Shown: piece after piece, positions 1,498 through 33,484 of the stretch
How positions within the stretch are numbered: the first letter of the stretch is position 1
How the letters are laid out: the number at the start of each line of letters is the position of its first letter
Source: Methylococcaceae bacterium
GTDB lineage: Bacteria; Pseudomonadota; Gammaproteobacteria; Methylococcales; Methylomonadaceae
NCBI GenBank assembly: GCA_900299045.1
Contig: OMIH01000071.1
Coordinates: 1-39,354, forward strand
Length of the DNA: 39,354 bases
Reading direction: 5' to 3'
Translations under genes and position numbers: made by a program
The notes under the pieces: model-generated
Databases searched by the model: none
Told to the model about the DNA's origin: nothing
The model's input: only the letters and a program-made list of their open reading frames with translations

Positions 1498-2598
1498 TTA
1501 GTTTGAGGCGCGAAAATCATGAATGATATCAATAATTTTATCCTGTGAGTCATGCGACAATTCTGGATAAATCGGTAAACAAATCACTTCTTCAGAGATT
1601 TTACGCGCTATGGGTAAATTGGATGGTGCAGCAGAGGGTAAACCACGATACATGGGAAAATCACTAATGAGTGGATAAAAATAACGTCGCCCAAAAATGC
1701 CGTTTTCTTTTAATTTTTCGTAAAGTGCGTCACGATTTTTTTCAACAAAAATAGGGGAATACGCGTAATTAGCCACGTGAGAGCCACTATTTGCAAAGCG
1801 AATGCCCGTAATGTTTTTTAAACCTTCACGATAACGCACATCAATGATTTGACGTTTCGTCAGCGCATCGTCAATACCTTTGAGTTGAAGCAAACCAAAC
1901 GCCGCGTTAATTTCGCTCATTTTGCCATTGATGCCTGCCGCGACAACGGTCACTTCATCGACAAAACCAAAATTTTTCAAATGATCAATACGTCGTTTCG
2001 TTTTTTCATCGGGGCAAACGATAGCACCGCCTTCAAACGTATTAAATACTTTGGTGGCGTGAAAACTTAATACAGATAAATCACCGTGATTTAAAATACT
2101 ACCGTCTTGATTTTTGACGCCAAACGCATGCGCAGCGTCGTATATGACTTTCAAATTGTAGTTATCAGCTATTTTTTGAATGCGCTCAACATCGCAAGGG
2201 TAGCCGTAGCAATGAACAGGCATAATGGCGGTTGTTTGCGGTGTAATGGCAGCTTCGATTTTAGCGGCATCAAGATTGAGTGATATAGGGTCAATATCGA
2301 CAAAAACAGGTTTGATGCCATTCCATAATAGCGAATGTGCTGTCGCAACAAACGAATAAGGTGTCGTAATAACTTCGCCAGTGATTCTCAAGGCTTGAAG
2401 CGCTGTAATCAATGCAATTGTGCCATTGGTAAATAACGCTAAGTGCTTTACGCCCAAATAATCACATAACGCTTGCTCAAGTTGCTGATGAAATGTGCCG
2501 CCATTAGTGAGAACTTTATTTGCCCAAATTTGTGCTAAATACGGCATAAATTCGTCAAGAGGAGGCAAAGTCGGTTGTGTAACGTAAATATTTTTCAT
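1498..2598 (-). CDS. DegT/DnrJ/EryC1/StrS-family PLP-dependent aminotransferase
   Basis: ALFTNGTIALITALQAL, TTPYSFVATAHSLLWNGIKPVFVDID and SFHATKVFNTFEGGA (PLP lysine) motifs; 4-bp overlap with the upstream gene. Confidence 0.9.
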   Translation of the reverse strand: MKNIYVTQPTLPPLDEFMPYLAQIWANKVLTNGGTFHQQLEQALCDYLGVKHLALFTNGTIALITALQALRITGEVITTPYSFVATAHSLLWNGIKPVFVDIDPISLNLDAAKIEAAITPQTTAIMPVHCYGYPCDVERIQKIADNYNLKVIYDAAHAFGVKNQDGSILNHGDLSVLSFHATKVFNTFEGGAIVCPDEKTKRRIDHLKNFGFVDEVTVVAAGINGKMSEINAAFGLLQLKGIDDALTKRQIIDVRYREGLKNITGIRFANSGSHVANYAYSPIFVEKNRDALYEKLKENGIFGRRYFYPLISDFPMYRGLPSAAPSNLPIARKISEEVICLPIYPELSHDSQDKIIDIIHDFRASN

Positions 2599-3089
2599 TT
2601 CTCGTTGAATGATGAATTTGCTGTATAAACCGCACCACGTTGTTTAAAACAACGCGAACTAAATAAAATTTGTTTTTCAACCGCGCTTAAATCGCATTGT
2701 TTAATGAGTTGTGCAAGTTGGTTTTCTACCGTGACTTTATTTTTTCCATGAATCATACAGTACAAATTATAAGACCATTCTGGCAGCATTGGACGTTGAT
2801 AACAAAGTGTGACAAAGGAAAATTTCAACATTTTTTGTGCCACGATGTCAATTTCTGCTTCAGGTATGCGCCAGACAATCATTGCGTTAGCTCGATAACC
2901 CAACGTTGCGTGTTTGACGATAATACCTAACCTTTTGATGGTACCCTTTTTTTGCAGGTAACGTAATCTTTCGATGACTTGTGATTCACTTAAGCCAATT
3001 TTTTCACCGATAGTAGCATAAGGATGCGAACAAATCGGCAAGCCTTCAGCAAGTTGCGCTAACAAGAGATGATTTTTGCTTTCAATCAT
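2595..3089 (-). CDS. Lrp/AsnC-fold siroheme decarboxylase-like subunit (AhbA/AhbB, NirDLGH family)
   Basis: Winged-helix N-terminus followed by GYRANAMIVWRIPEAEID...VTLCYQRPMLPEWSYNLYCMIHGK, typical of NirL/NirH-type proteins. Confidence 0.8.
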   Translation of the reverse strand: MIESKNHLLLAQLAEGLPICSHPYATIGEKIGLSESQVIERLRYLQKKGTIKRLGIIVKHATLGYRANAMIVWRIPEAEIDIVAQKMLKFSFVTLCYQRPMLPEWSYNLYCMIHGKNKVTVENQLAQLIKQCDLSAVEKQILFSSRCFKQRGAVYTANSSFNEK

Positions 3090-3549
3090 TTGCTAAATCC
3101 AATCGGAAACTTAAATCAATAAAAAACTCTTTGATCAACGGAAAACGGAGAACGCGATAGCCGGTTTCATTTTCAATAGAGGCAATCGTTTTGTCCAAAT
3201 GTGAAGAATGCGAAGCGATCAACACAAACCAAAGATTTACCTCGTGTTCACGCTCGTAATTATGATTCACTTCCGTGTATTGATTGATTTGCGCGGCAAC
3301 ATGCTCTATTTCATCTTGAGGAACAGACATGGCCGCAAGCGTACTCACGCCAAGTTGATTGGGTGGAATAATGGCGCCAATACGACTAATACATTGTTTT
3401 TCATCTAATTCGTTTAATGCGTCGATGACGTCATTTTCACTCACACCAAGTTGATTGGCGATATTGGCATAAGGCGTTGGCGTTAGTGGAAAATCTCGTT
3501 GAAAATCATTGAGTAATTTTTTTTGTAAATCGGACAATTCAAGCACCAT
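3082..3549 (-). CDS. Lrp/AsnC-fold siroheme decarboxylase-like subunit (AhbA/AhbB, NirDLGH family)
   Basis: LGVSENDVIDALNELDEKQCISRIGAIIPPNQLGVSTLAAMSVP...VNHNYEREHEVNLWFVL, typical of NirD/NirG-type proteins; overlaps the next gene by 8 bp. Confidence 0.8.
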   Translation of the reverse strand: MVLELSDLQKKLLNDFQRDFPLTPTPYANIANQLGVSENDVIDALNELDEKQCISRIGAIIPPNQLGVSTLAAMSVPQDEIEHVAAQINQYTEVNHNYEREHEVNLWFVLIASHSSHLDKTIASIENETGYRVLRFPLIKEFFIDLSFRLDLAND

Positions 3550-4721
3550 TACATCCCAATTTTGTGCGCCCGAGCGCTAAAGAAAATGCCGTTAGGTTTA
3601 TCAGCAGGCAATCGAGTGATTTCTCTGAGCGTGTCGGTGTCGTAAATAACGACTTGATTCTCATCGCGCACGGCTACCCATACATTTTCACCGCGTGGCG
3701 TAAATTCAAAATGCAATACGGCTTTGCCGGGATTGAGTGTGTGCGTGACGCTCAAGGTGCTAGCATCAATAATTTGTACTTTATCATTGCTAGGTAGTGC
3801 AAAATTAACCCAAATCTGCCGCCCATCGGGTCTTGCTATGACAAAAACAGGTTGACCTAAAACGGGAATTGTTTTGACAAGTTGCCACGTGCGATTATCC
3901 ACCACAAGCACTTCATGTCGTCCAATAGCCGGTACAAAGACATAATCACTTGTCATTGCCCAGCCTTCAAAATGTGGCATTTTATAGATGGGCAGTTGCT
4001 CGTCATCGTTACCGTAATTTTCAAGTACCCGTTTCACGCCATTTTCAGGGTGCCATAAATCCAGTAAAGCTAAACCTTTTTCTGCAAATAATCCTGCGAT
4101 GTAATAACGCCCATCAGCTGAAATCATCGCATCGTAGGGTTGTTTGCCAATATGTTTAAATTTGTCGATTTTAGGCTGTTTAATGTCGGTGGTATCAATG
4201 ACCCAAATTTCACCTGCATCAAATAAGCTGACGACAAAGCGATGATTAGGCGCATCAACAAGACCAACGGTTTTGGATAATTGATTGTTGCCATAACTTG
4301 CTGGAATATCGGCTAATAATTCCAGTGACTCTGCCGAAAATAATTTCACGCCAGGGGGAGAGTAATTGGAAACCGCGATAATACTGCCATCTTGAGAAAT
4401 TGCACCGCCAATACTATTCCCCCCTTGAATTATTCGATGACTGACCTCATCTTGGAGCAAATCTATTTTGCTTAGACCGCCATCGCGTCCAAAAACATAC
4501 GCAAAACGCTGATCACGTGAAAAAACAACTGAAGCGTGCGACAAATCACCAAGGTCTTCGATGCGTGAGAGTGATGTTTTTTGCGTGGTATTTACAATCA
4601 GTACGGAGTGCGCTTCACGCTCGATAACAAGCCCTAAATCACCAGTAGGGCGATACTCATCGGCGTTCACATTAGGTGTAATAAGTAAACTCAAACTGAG
4701 AAAATAAAATAATTTGGTCAT
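3549..4721 (-). CDS. nirF: NirF-like cytochrome d1-type beta-propeller protein (heme d1 biosynthesis)
   Basis: Signal peptide; repeats such as YVFGRDGGLSKIDL, YDAMISADGRYYIAGLF and GWAMTSDYVFVPAIGRHEVLVVD are NirF-like; directly upstream of two NirDLGH-type genes. Confidence 0.8.
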   Translation of the reverse strand: MTKLFYFLSLSLLITPNVNADEYRPTGDLGLVIEREAHSVLIVNTTQKTSLSRIEDLGDLSHASVVFSRDQRFAYVFGRDGGLSKIDLLQDEVSHRIIQGGNSIGGAISQDGSIIAVSNYSPPGVKLFSAESLELLADIPASYGNNQLSKTVGLVDAPNHRFVVSLFDAGEIWVIDTTDIKQPKIDKFKHIGKQPYDAMISADGRYYIAGLFAEKGLALLDLWHPENGVKRVLENYGNDDEQLPIYKMPHFEGWAMTSDYVFVPAIGRHEVLVVDNRTWQLVKTIPVLGQPVFVIARPDGRQIWVNFALPSNDKVQIIDASTLSVTHTLNPGKAVLHFEFTPRGENVWVAVRDENQVVIYDTDTLREITRLPADKPNGIFFSARAHKIGM

Positions 4722-23175: not shown

Positions 23176-25221
23176 TTATAAGCCAAAAGATTGATCTAAT
23201 AAGGCATTATCAATATGACCCGCACGGAAGGTTTTGCCTGATTCAACTGCCGTAACGATCACGCTCGCGGGGCTAAATAACATCGCGTCAATTTTGAAAA
23301 AATCATATTCATACGCTTTGAAAATATCCGCAAATGGTTTGCCGTAATCTTTGGAGGTTGAGCTAGGTAGCGCTTCGGCTAATTTTTTAGCGTCTTCATC
23401 ACTGCCTTTAACAAAAATGTGTACTTGACCGGCAAATAAAATCGCATCATTTGTGCGCCCCATTGCTTTAACAAAATTAGGATGGGGAGGGCAAATAGGG
23501 GCAAAACCGCTGCCATCGACGATATTTTCTAAAGGAAAATGCAGCGCGTGTGCTTTGTGCATCGCAACTTCTAATACCCGCGCAACGACTTGAACACCAC
23601 CCGCCAAACTGCTTGTTGGCGTGACAATAATGGTTAATTTTGATGGCTCAACACCACACGCTGCAGCGACTTTTTCAACAATCGCTAAAGGGGGAATCGC
23701 ATCATTTTCAATCACTAAAACAGGGCAATCACTGTCATCGTGATAGGCAAGTTCTTGATATAATTCTTCAACAGGCAAGGTTTGACCGTCTTTTTGCTTG
23801 GCTGCCATGGCGCGTGCAGGACCTGAACCAAGCGCGTAGTATTTTTCATGCGACAAACTCCAGCCGGCATATTGACTGCCTAAGCAGGCAAGTACAGGAT
23901 TGCCTGTATGGACATTGACCGATAAAGGCCAATGATCGGTGTATGTGCTATGTGTAATGGTGACAGTTCCCATACCGCCTAAACAAATTTCAGCAATAAT
24001 ACGACCCGCTTCTAAGCCGCCAACGTGCTTAATACCTGCATCAATGATGGTGCAACCATGTTCTAGTATTTCAACGCCAACGCGCAATTTGTCGGCTTGT
24101 TCAATAAGTTGTTTAACGAGAGGGTGGGCGAGTTGATTAACGCTGGCTTTTTGTGTCATTAGTAGAGACCTTTTTATGTGTTGTTGAATCATTGCAAATG
24201 TGTGTTGCACATCGTGCATCGTTTTTCTGTGTGCAATGATACTGCAAATAGGCGAATTTTGGCGAATTATTGCATTTTTTGACGGTAAATCGGTGCAATA
24301 GGCTGACCATAAATAGCGATTGGGAATAGCCGTATCGCGTTTGGCGTAGATAATCTGGTAACCCGAAATTTGTGATTGACTAAAGGGTATGTGACGAATC
24401 TTCTTAACACTGCACTCAATGTGGCGCGTGATTAAACTTGCGTCATAGAGTTGCGCACTAGCGGGGGGGCGTGTATTGATTTCTAAAATAAATAAAGTGT
24501 TATTATTTGCAATAAAATCAATGGAATGTAATCCCTTTAATGAAAAGAAACGACTTAATGTTAACACCCAAACGGTGATTAAATCGCGCTGTTTAGGCGT
24601 TAATGCAGAACAGTTAATGATGCTAGAAAATAAGAAATCATCGTGTGTTAATTGGGTATTAAAACCCAGTATGTCAACGTCTTTGCCATCACTTAAAAAT
24701 AATGCCGAACCACTGGCGCCGGCTTGAAATTGTTGAAAATAGACTGGCGTTTGTGGAAGAGGAGTTTGCGATAACCGTGAAATATCCACCCCGCCTAATC
24801 CCTTCATGGGTTTTATCAACCAATTTTGAGTTGATTTTGGTGGTGAAAAAACGGTTTTTGGAAAAGGAATGTCGAATTTTTTGAGTGACCTAAAAAAAAA
24901 TGCTTTGTCTTGTACTTTTGTGAATGTTTCAGGTGAGTTGCCCACTAACGGTAAACAAGAGGCTAAATACGGCAAACTATCACTAAAATATTCAAATCCA
25001 CTGCCATAAATAGCATAGTCAATCTGATAATTGTTTAAAAAATAGCCGACGGTAGGGATTAAATTGGCTAGGGAAAGTGAATCGACTTTTTTGAAATCGA
25101 GTGCATAATGGCGCGTATCGCAATCGCCATAGCAATCTATAGCCAGCACACAAAATCCTTCACACTTCGCCATTTGCGCGAGCATTCGCGCAGAATTGGC
25201 AATAATTAAAACGGTGGTCAA
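23176..25221 (-). CDS. mch: ATP-grasp domain (aa 1-354) fused in frame to methenyltetrahydromethanopterin cyclohydrolase Mch (from aa 355, Met at 24159)
   Basis: C-terminal part [58 protein letters not shown]...[23 protein letters not shown]...[11 protein letters not shown] is Mch. The N-terminal part has ATP-grasp features ([42 protein letters not shown]). No stop between them. Confidence 0.93.
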
Positions 25222-31051: not shown

Positions 31052-31804
31052 ATGTGTTGGAGTGGTGAAGCATCGGGGGTGCTTGCAGCAGTTGGCTTGG
31101 GGACAGCGTATTACATCGCAAAAAAAGGGGAGTCCAAAGAACTCTGGATTCCATTAACCTATTTTGCATTAATGGAATTACTTCAAGCGTTTACTTATGT
31201 GTATATTGATTTGTGTGATAATCCTAATAATCAAATTTTAACGATGCTAGGGTATTTACACGTCGCCTTTCAGCCATTTTTTGCCAATATGGTGGCAATG
31301 TATTTTATTCCTGAAAGTATTAAACTCAAAATTCGTACAACGGTTTATACCATTTGCGCGGCAGGTTCTATTTTGATTTTATTTAAAATGTATCCATTTG
31401 CATGGGCGGGAACGTGTGTTATTGGTACAGAAGGTTTTTGTGGACCTCATGTCTGCTCCGTGTCGGGTGCATGGCATATTGCTTGGCAAATGCCGCTCAA
31501 TGGCTTGCTTTCACACCCTATTGAATGGTTGTTTAATTTCAATTGGGGTTTGCATGTATTGGCGTATATTATTGTTGCCTTTATTTTGCCGACGCTTTAT
31601 GGCTCATGGCGATTTGTGTTATTCCACTACTTCATGGGACCTTGGATTTCAGATATTACCACCGATGATCCTAATGAATACGCGGCAGTGTGGTGCTTGT
31701 TTTCGATTGCGTTGTGTGTATCCGTGATCAAATCACCTGTGCGCAAGTATTTGCACGTGACTAGTTGGCCATTTTATAAAAAACACGTAGGAGATTCGTT
31801 GTGA
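31052..31804 (+). CDS. Multi-pass membrane protein with conserved N-terminus MCWSGEAS (DUF5765-like)
   Basis: MCWSGEASGVLAAVGLGTAYYIAKKGESKELWIPLTYFALMELLQAFTYVYIDLC; about 7 hydrophobic segments; RBS AACGAGG upstream. Confidence 0.8.
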   Translation: MCWSGEASGVLAAVGLGTAYYIAKKGESKELWIPLTYFALMELLQAFTYVYIDLCDNPNNQILTMLGYLHVAFQPFFANMVAMYFIPESIKLKIRTTVYTICAAGSILILFKMYPFAWAGTCVIGTEGFCGPHVCSVSGAWHIAWQMPLNGLLSHPIEWLFNFNWGLHVLAYIIVAFILPTLYGSWRFVLFHYFMGPWISDITTDDPNEYAAVWCLFSIALCVSVIKSPVRKYLHVTSWPFYKKHVGDSL

Positions 31805-31865
31805 CGATGACCTAAATTGTTTGCATCGTGTTTGGGCATGATACAAACAATTGAAATTCAAAGTT

Positions 31866-31898
31866 AAAAAAAGCCAACACAGTGTGTTGGCTTTTTTT
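31866..31898. terminator. Bidirectional terminator between the convergent MCWSGEAS gene and the cupredoxin gene
   Basis: AAAAAAAGCCAACAC-agt-GTGTTGGCTTTTTTT perfect stem with flanking A and T tracts. Confidence 0.9.
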
Positions 31899-31915
31899 AT
31901 ACCACAAAGCACAAG

Positions 31916-32815
31916 TTATTTATGTAATGTGTGTTGTATTTTTTTAATTAATTGAGCGGTTAATGCAATAATGGCATTATTGATTGTTTTCAGAAGGTCT
32001 ATCACATAAGCTAAAATCTCTGCCGCGCTCATCCCTTTGAATTTTTGCACTAAAAATGGGGCTAGCAATAAGCCTAGTGCGAGTCCTATAACCGTGACAC
32101 CTGAAAATGTGCTGTCTTCTGGCGTTGCGGGCGTGGACGATGTCGCTGCAACGGGTGCTGCCGTTTTTTCAGCTACGGTGGGTTCTGCATTGGCTTCTTC
32201 GTGTGCTTTTGCTAAAAGTTCGGGCAGTGTAATTTTATAATCGTCAGCAATGGTATTTGCCGTTACGTTGGGTATACTTGGCAAATCGCCATCGCCTTTA
32301 CCCACTTTTAATTGGGCTTTCATGCCCTTTTCCATGTGTTGAGCAATATCACAATGCACTAAATACGTTTTATCTCCCGGTGGCAAAATCAGTGTACCCG
32401 AAATTTTTGCAGGTCCTGAAACTTCTAAATGGAACATACCTTTAGGATACAAATATTTAGGCAGACCGTGCATCATCCACTGATGGCGAACGTTGTCATC
32501 GTTGATAAAATGAACGGTTAATTTTGTACAAGGCTTGAATTGAAATTCTTGTGTGTCGAAGGCAAACATTCTGCCTGGAAATTTTTCGGCGTATTTATGC
32601 CCTGCATGAACGGTAATTTCTTTGGTTTCTGAGATTTTTTCGCAACCACCAGGTAGGGTATCAGGATTGTTGCCCATGACCATGCCACCAGCCATATCCA
32701 TTAAATGCCCATCACCGTGGTTCATTAATATACCATCGTGATCTTGATAATCTTGAGCAAATGTCGGTAGCGCAAACAGCGCCGCCATGACGCTTACCGA
32801 TACTAATTTCATCAT
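31916..32815 (-). CDS. Periplasmic membrane-anchored cupredoxin-domain protein (type 1 copper motif, Met/His-rich N-terminus)
   Basis: Signal peptide; HDGILMNHGDGHLMDMAGGMVMGNNP; HCDIAQHMEKGM (C-X4-H-X4-M) and an upstream His in NVRHQWMMHG; low-complexity linker then C-terminal TM helix. Confidence 0.87.
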   Translation of the reverse strand: MMKLVSVSVMAALFALPTFAQDYQDHDGILMNHGDGHLMDMAGGMVMGNNPDTLPGGCEKISETKEITVHAGHKYAEKFPGRMFAFDTQEFQFKPCTKLTVHFINDDNVRHQWMMHGLPKYLYPKGMFHLEVSGPAKISGTLILPPGDKTYLVHCDIAQHMEKGMKAQLKVGKGDGDLPSIPNVTANTIADDYKITLPELLAKAHEEANAEPTVAEKTAAPVAATSSTPATPEDSTFSGVTVIGLALGLLLAPFLVQKFKGMSAAEILAYVIDLLKTINNAIIALTAQLIKKIQHTLHK

Positions 32816-32869
32816 TCTTTTTGCCTCTTGAATAAGTAAAACGACGTCCTTGTCTGAATTTGTCGCGGT

Positions 32870-33484
32870 TTATTCTTTGATTTTGCCAACTAAACCATCG
32901 ATAGCGCGTTTGAAACCCGCGTTTGATAAATAAACGACATACAAGCCAGCAAAGGCAAAGAACGCATACAAAAAGAGTTCATTTTTAGATGCTTGTTGAC
33001 CTTTACCTGCTTGGAAACTCATGTGTGCATCAAGACGCTCGCTTCCCGCTTCACCATCTTCTGGTAATAAGGTAATGTGGATGAGATATTTACCCACCTC
33101 AGGCACCCCTTCTGGCAATGAAAGCATTACCGTGCCGGATTTGTGTTTTGCCGCTTCTTGGAAGAAAACACGTGTCCCTTCGGGTTCTTTGGTGACTTCA
33201 AATTCGACGGCTCTATTACGGTATTTCATGTCTTGGTAATCAAATACCAATTGAATTAATGAGTCGGTGCTTGGAATATTGCCGCAAAAATCTTCAGCTG
33301 GGAAGGCTTTAGGTTGATAAGCTGTGTAGTGAATCCAGTGATCTTTTTCTAATTCAAATTTACATTGATCCGTATCGGTACCAGCAGCGCCGCCATGCGC
33401 CCATAATGCCGACGAAAAAAGTAACGCTGTTAAACCGAGTGAACTTTTTTTAATCATTTGCGCTATGTTCATAAGTCTTCTCAC
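32870..33484 (-). CDS. Secreted, C-terminally anchored 'AHGG' protein of unknown function, putatively copper-associated
   Basis: Signal peptide ending ALWA|HGGAAGTD (N-terminal His after predicted cleavage); CKFELEKDHWIHYTAYQPKAFPAEDFCGNIPSTD; C-terminal TM segment LFLYAFFAFAGLYVVYL. Confidence 0.82.
   Translation of the reverse strand: MRRLMNIAQMIKKSSLGLTALLFSSALWAHGGAAGTDTDQCKFELEKDHWIHYTAYQPKAFPAEDFCGNIPSTDSLIQLVFDYQDMKYRNRAVEFEVTKEPEGTRVFFQEAAKHKSGTVMLSLPEGVPEVGKYLIHITLLPEDGEAGSERLDAHMSFQAGKGQQASKNELFLYAFFAFAGLYVVYLSNAGFKRAIDGLVGKIKE

Follow-up and report, generated by a model that had tools for sequence, protein, structure and literature searches.

The window, a stretch of 39,354 nucleotides from a Methylococcaceae bacterium, carries two adjacent genes on its minus strand. 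Judged by its sequence, the upstream gene encodes a member of the PmoD/AmoD family, and the downstream gene encodes a membrane-anchored type-1 cupredoxin (CUP). Both products are predicted to be secreted and C-terminally anchored, as originally proposed: both open reading frames lie on the minus strand, and hydropathy gives the PmoD-like protein and CUP one strong C-terminal hydrophobic segment each. The locus consists of the following features.

32870..33472, minus strand: PmoD/AmoD-family gene, 200 aa from the ATG at 33472 (open reading frame list and match to PmoD 6CPD)
33398..33472, minus strand: predicted signal peptide of the PmoD-like protein, ending ..SSALWA (sequence, (-3,-1) rule)
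33395..33397, minus strand: codon for the predicted mature N-terminal His, A/HGGAAG with the slash marking cleavage (conservation among orthologues)
33284..33364, minus strand: Cys41 to Cys67 stretch with His49-Trp50-x-His52 inside, Cx7HWxHx14C (alignment; both Cys invariant in 105/105)
32924..32986, minus strand: C-terminal transmembrane helix of the PmoD-like protein (AF2 helix 138-158 in mature numbering, in a block with pLDDT of about 85-95; hydropathy)
32816..32869, minus strand: 54-bp intergenic gap with a Shine-Dalgarno-like AAGAGG ahead of CUP
31916..32815, minus strand: CUP, a membrane-anchored type-1 cupredoxin of 299 aa (open reading frame; Pfam Cu-oxidase_2)
32756..32815, minus strand: predicted signal peptide of CUP, ..ALPTFA/QDYQDHD (sequence; hydropathy)
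32321..32485, minus strand: type-1 copper ligands His111, Cys155, His160 and Met165 of CUP (conservation in 126 homologues)
32036..32116, minus strand: C-terminal transmembrane segment of CUP; a long predicted helix comes after it (hydropathy; AF2 helices 219-239 and 244-278 in mature numbering)
31865..31899, minus strand: terminator-like 16-pair stem and T-run after CUP (palindromic, also serving the convergent DUF5765 gene; the scanner's overall number of hits is no higher than in shuffles)

The PmoD-like protein most likely starts at the ATG at 33472. The 204-aa frame of the original prediction, which opens with the GTG at 33484, is present, and the ATG is preferred because it is preceded by a Shine-Dalgarno-like GAGAAG and matches the start position of nearly all orthologues. 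The start codon of CUP is the ATG at 32815, with AAGAGG ahead of it. Co-transcription of the two genes is likely, given the short gap between them and the stem with its T-run past CUP. Upstream of the PmoD-like gene lies gpi, in divergent orientation, and the PmoD-like gene stands outside any pmo operon, with gpi and DUF5765 genes as neighbours. The DUF5765 gene (31052-31804, plus strand), which is convergent to the pair, encodes a multi-transmembrane protein, and this adjacency is kept only in close relatives. Chance or spurious reading frames are ruled out by identities of 60-90% over dozens of genomes. The window also contains the tetrahydromethanopterin C1 genes MCH and FTR, as expected of a methylotroph. 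In a single 681-aa frame (23176-25221, minus strand), an ATP-grasp domain and methenyl-H4MPT cyclohydrolase (MCH) are encoded together, apparently as a fusion of two C1-pathway proteins. At 2595-4721 (minus strand), siroheme decarboxylase NirDL-like proteins adjoin a cytochrome-d1-type beta-propeller (NirF/NirN-like), and these heme d1 genes hint that a methanotroph-like genome may encode cd1 nitrite reduction.

The upstream product had been described as an AHGG protein without assigned function. This description has to be abandoned, as the protein falls into the copper-binding PmoD/AmoD family, of which one operon-encoded copy in Methylosinus is required for copper-dependent growth (PMC6189053). 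The assignment follows from matches to 6CPD, the crystal structure of PmoD Met49242_1452 (Fisher et al. 2018, PMC6189053). The single window sequence finds this chain with a phmmer E-value of 0.013, and a profile of relatives that includes the window protein reaches E=2.6e-24 and pairs Cys41 and Cys67 of the window protein with Cys41 and Cys65 of 6CPD. Orthologues are encoded in 58/61 relatives, and pmoB is present in 51/61. Among 89 orthologues at family level, H30 (predicted to be the first residue of the mature protein), C41, W50, H52, C67, H114, H136 and H154 are invariant, and H49 is nearly so. The AF2 model of the mature protein consists of a beta-sandwich and a C-terminal helix pair (mean pLDDT 79), with residues 1-8 modelled at pLDDT below 50. 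A fold search with this model returns only generic beta-sandwich, FetP/FtrA and CrdA matches, at a TM-score (query) of about 0.4.

The window protein resembles the PmoD of 6CPD in its signal peptide, periplasmic beta-sandwich, two invariant cysteines, C-terminal transmembrane helix and occurrence in CuMMO organisms. In contrast to that protein, it carries the motif Cx7HWxHx14C, has a predicted N-terminal His in place of the Glu of the crystallised protein, and is encoded outside a pmo operon beside a cupredoxin. In the alignment the CuA motif Cx7MxHxnC is absent from the window PmoD: the His is kept, the position of the CuA ligand Met49 is occupied by Trp (a Trp/aliphatic position), and one residue is inserted. 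In the CuA-forming PmoD, Met49 and His51 are essential, and the M49A exchange abolished CuA (PMC6189053). In view of the published mutants, a CuA site is not expected in the window PmoD, nor does its motif, which lacks this Met, support one. A second PmoD class occurs in the window's genus (L094 1350-2015, L095 2274-2846, L096 2443-3057, L076 231-863, L276 1557-2126). Its members are predicted lipoproteins that lack the N-terminal His and are encoded convergently to pmoB, beside a CopC-like gene where the locus reaches far enough.

After the signal peptide end ..SSALWA, the predicted mature protein starts with HGGAAG, and this His is identical in 89/89 family-level orthologues, the cleavage site being deduced from the (-3,-1) rule and conservation. 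Over 133 distinct PmoD-family sequences, about 120 have a post-signal His, of which 117 start with HG after Ala or Gly and three, counted by eye, read S/P-HGG. Exceptions are a DGG start in family f6 and the copC-linked copies, which are predicted lipoproteins; the alphaproteobacterial PmoD copy that matches the 6CPD chain reads RA/EGG. All constructs of Fisher et al. carry a vector-derived Ser-Met at the N terminus (PMC6189053), and the profile alignment places the start of the 6CPD chain about three native residues ahead of Cys41. Hence, the published constructs apparently lack the native N-terminal His. We consider a copper site at the native N-terminal His of PmoD a lead that sequence conservation provides, as distinct from evidence for a histidine brace.

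CUP carries the complete ligand set of a type-1 (blue) copper site, namely His, Cys, His and Met. H111, C155 and H160 are kept by 126/126 homologues; at position 165, 124 have Met and the other 2 Leu, which bears out the C-X4-H-X4-M motif noted originally. The Met/His-rich N-terminus, also part of the original prediction, includes Met39, Met45 and Met47, which are kept in 125, 123 and 125 of the 126 sequences. This Met cluster suggests Cu(I) binding. A cysteine pair (C58/C96) is near-invariant as well. Conserved ligands are found in the homologues of both proteins. The Pfam family Cu-oxidase_2 matches CUP at 22.7 bits (cut-off 20.4), a partial match covering residues 150-174 only. A CUP profile finds no solved chain in the PDB at E<=0.01, and neither NCBIfam nor the PDB profile supplies a name. 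The AF2 model of CUP, made like that of the PmoD-like protein on a single chain, is poor (mean pLDDT 60), and the fold search accordingly covered the PmoD-like protein. Nitrosocyanin is a red-copper variant among cupredoxins. CUP shares the type-1 ligand pattern with cupredoxins of the nitrosocyanin, plastocyanin and sulfocyanin type, and differs from them in its Met-rich N-terminus, the additional C58/C96 pair and the C-terminal anchor.

CUP orthologues or paralogues are present in 60/61 relatives, and the window's family has two forms, the long form of the window and a shorter paralogue. The homologue in G381 (L224 7306-8307, minus strand) has a very long His/Asp-rich N-terminal stretch with dozens of His, suggesting metal buffering. 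G027 encodes two identical short CUP copies about 11 kb apart (L099 2940-3959 and 13611-14327, minus strand), with a recurrent ORF family near both and one copy without an adjacent MCO (multicopper oxidase); they are perhaps the result of a recent duplication. In N. oceani, Noc2499 is annotated as a 'hypothetical periplasmic protein' after AmoD and shows 13-fold ammonium induction (PMC3772326); it may be an orthologue of CUP. In the open-access literature, to which our search was confined, we found no description of CUP, of the order PmoD-MCO-CUP or of a pair upstream of pmoC.

The two genes are evidently part of a conserved module composed of PmoD, a two-domain MCO and the cupredoxin. CUP relatives are encoded at 456 places in the named genome collection. 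Of the best 80 of these, all from Methylococcales-type or uncultured relatives, 79 have PmoD as the gene immediately ahead of CUP, so the pair extends beyond the window genome as originally supposed. In the neighbourhoods of 40 loci, PmoD and CUP often flank an MCO of about 575 aa, and a small membrane protein with a VTT domain (DedA-like) frequently comes next. In several families the module directly follows pmoB: the order pmoC-pmoA-pmoB-PmoD-MCO-CUP is found on one strand in G043, G056 and G070, and G309 shows the same order from pmoA on. In the window's genus, a short CUP paired with an MCO precedes pmoC at a distance of about 220 bp (L076, L094-L096, L276).

The module MCO is of the two-domain type and matches both domains of 2zwn and 3g5w at E=7e-29. 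The latter we take to be the Nitrosomonas europaea enzyme. As in these oxidases, the T1 and trinuclear-site ligands are kept and nearly invariant; unlike them, the module MCO is about 575 aa long, with an extra N-terminal region and a C-terminal transmembrane anchor seen as a hydrophobic segment, and its gene is displaced from the window locus. PmoD itself, its CuA subclass and its occasional proximity to an MCO have already been published (PMC6189053, PMC6688271). According to passages of PMC6688271, pmoD of Methylococcus capsulatus adjoins an MCO (MCA2130) and is down without copper, and one pmoD of Methylacidiphilum kamchatkense lies beside an MCO. These loci share the PmoD-MCO adjacency with the module, whereas a cupredoxin partner, a pair by pmoC and the in-operon order are not mentioned in those passages. 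A works-like analogy is provided by the metal-oxidising uptake system FtrA/FtrB, in which a beta-sandwich metal-presenting protein acts with a cupredoxin and a membrane protein; no sequence relation to it was found, and the PmoD model matches FetP/FtrA weakly (TM about 0.4).

In the window's lineage, the MCO is displaced from the module. On contig C61, the MAG of the window has a second MCO, which falls together with the MCOs encoded inside the cluster in other genera (support 100/100). Loss of the module MCO in this organism is therefore ruled out, and only its linkage to the pair is lost. No pmoA or pmoB was found in the MAG. A true loss of pmo is also rejected as the explanation, as contig C81 stops 49 bp past a pmo-type MCO; the pmo operon was most likely lost at this assembly break. 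The original notion of the pair as a module is accordingly incomplete, since the MCO is normally included and here resides on another contig, and copper delivery or redox function persists as the leading idea. None of the three findings named originally as contradicting it came up: the predicted cleavage stays ahead of the His, ligand residues are conserved in the homologues, and the two genes occur together in other genomes.

We further compared the distribution of the components over 369 genomes across the gammaproteobacteria. Strong CUP matches occur in 11 genomes, PmoB in 10 and PmoD in 13. Both CUP and PmoB are present in 9 genomes (Fisher p=1.7e-15), and PmoD is encoded in each of the 11 with CUP (p=2.1e-19). 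Outside the window's order, CUP and PmoB still share 6 genomes (p=1.6e-11). These p-values treat genomes as independent and count genomes instead of independent gains, so they are only indicative. The pairing with a C1 or CuMMO context, proposed originally, is in line with these figures. In G053, a member of the window's order, PmoA, PmoB, PmoD, CUP and a close MCO are all absent. G272 has PmoB and PmoD without CUP. Its PmoB-like sequence lies in a 910-aa ORF (L227 5857-8589, plus strand; usual PmoB about 415-450 aa), a possible fusion, with PmoD nearby. Nine PmoDs and a CuMMO, but no CUP, are encoded in the alphaproteobacterial genome G595, so a CuMMO does not generally require CUP. Nor is the module confined to CuMMO bearers, because G104 keeps it without CuMMO. 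In this complete, single-contig genome, which lacks PmoA and PmoB, a cytochrome c oxidase operon immediately precedes PmoD-MCO-CUP in one shared orientation (L218 7545-15001), with genes for COX2-cytochrome c, COX1, two COX3-like proteins and COX4 ahead of the module.

We propose that the module handles copper at the membrane surface for copper membrane enzymes, above all the pMMO/AMO-type monooxygenase, and assign this reading a probability of about one half. All three proteins are predicted to be secreted and tethered by C-terminal helices, and their site of action would thus be the periplasmic side of the inner membrane. PmoD would bind copper via its N-terminal cluster of Cys41, His49 and His52, perhaps with the mature N-terminal His, and would pass it to the monooxygenase. 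The Met-rich CUP and the MCO would form a redox couple that sets the oxidation state of copper for transfer; alternatively, they might keep labile Cu(I) from causing damage. We infer copper binding by the window-class PmoD, the partnership of MCO and cupredoxin, and delivery to the monooxygenase. The window locus without its MCO counts against this proposal, and general copper homeostasis in cells with a high demand for copper could also explain the co-occurrence.

The physiological reductant of pMMO/AMO is debated, and CUP, with or without PmoD, might instead carry electrons to these enzymes, the MCO being a partner or an overflow oxidase. The textbook type-1 ligands of CUP, its anchoring in the membrane beside the enzyme, the position of its gene upstream of pmoC or downstream of pmoB and the tight co-occurrence with CuMMO would all suit such a role. 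An O2-reducing MCO is, however, an odd constant partner for an electron donor, and G595 sustains a CuMMO without CUP. In G104 the module is attached to another copper membrane enzyme, a cytochrome oxidase with its own COX2-cytochrome c, which argues for copper handling over an electron donor dedicated to pMMO. Together with the Met cluster, which points to Cu(I), these observations lead us to favour copper delivery over electron donation, which we regard as unlikely. A CueO-like cuprous oxidase system, protecting cells with copper-rich intracytoplasmic membranes, would account for the complete copper sites of the MCO, and the high copper load of CuMMO bearers would by itself lead one to expect the co-occurrence. 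Copper tolerance genes are widespread in bacteria, yet CUP is absent from about 97% of the class sample, and a location in or by pmo/amo operons is unusual for a tolerance system. Passages of PMC6688271 do report copper-up expression for a pmoD beside an MCO, but deletion of PmoD in OB3b, a different copy, impaired growth specifically under pMMO conditions (PMC6189053). Tolerance as the main function thus strikes us as quite improbable.

The PmoD-like protein could also be a His-brace redox enzyme itself, resembling LPMO or CopC and paired with the cupredoxin for electron transfer. The histidine brace suggested originally keeps some footing in the invariant predicted N-terminal His (89/89) and in five further His that are invariant or nearly so (H49, H52, H114, H136, H154). 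Against it count the replacement of this His by Asp in family f6 and by Glu in the CuA-type PmoD, a fold search that recovers no specific brace protein, and the low confidence with which the N-terminus is modelled. We judge this enzyme role very improbable.

In a bolder form of the copper-handling proposal, PmoD, MCO and CUP would together make up a machine dedicated to inserting copper into membrane copper enzymes, namely CuMMO and, in one lineage, a heme-copper oxidase. The native N-terminal His of PmoD would then be a copper ligand missed through vector residues, and the CUP-MCO couple would set the redox state of the metal; we offer this version tentatively, as less likely than not. The routes by which pMMO/AMO acquires its copper and its electrons have long been debated, and this question lies behind the loss of activity on isolation (PMC6189053). 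As CUP and the MCO track CuMMO across the gammaproteobacteria, they are concrete candidates for missing components of pMMO/AMO, and the post-signal His of most PmoD homologues, apparently missing from the published constructs, could revise the view of the site of PmoD.
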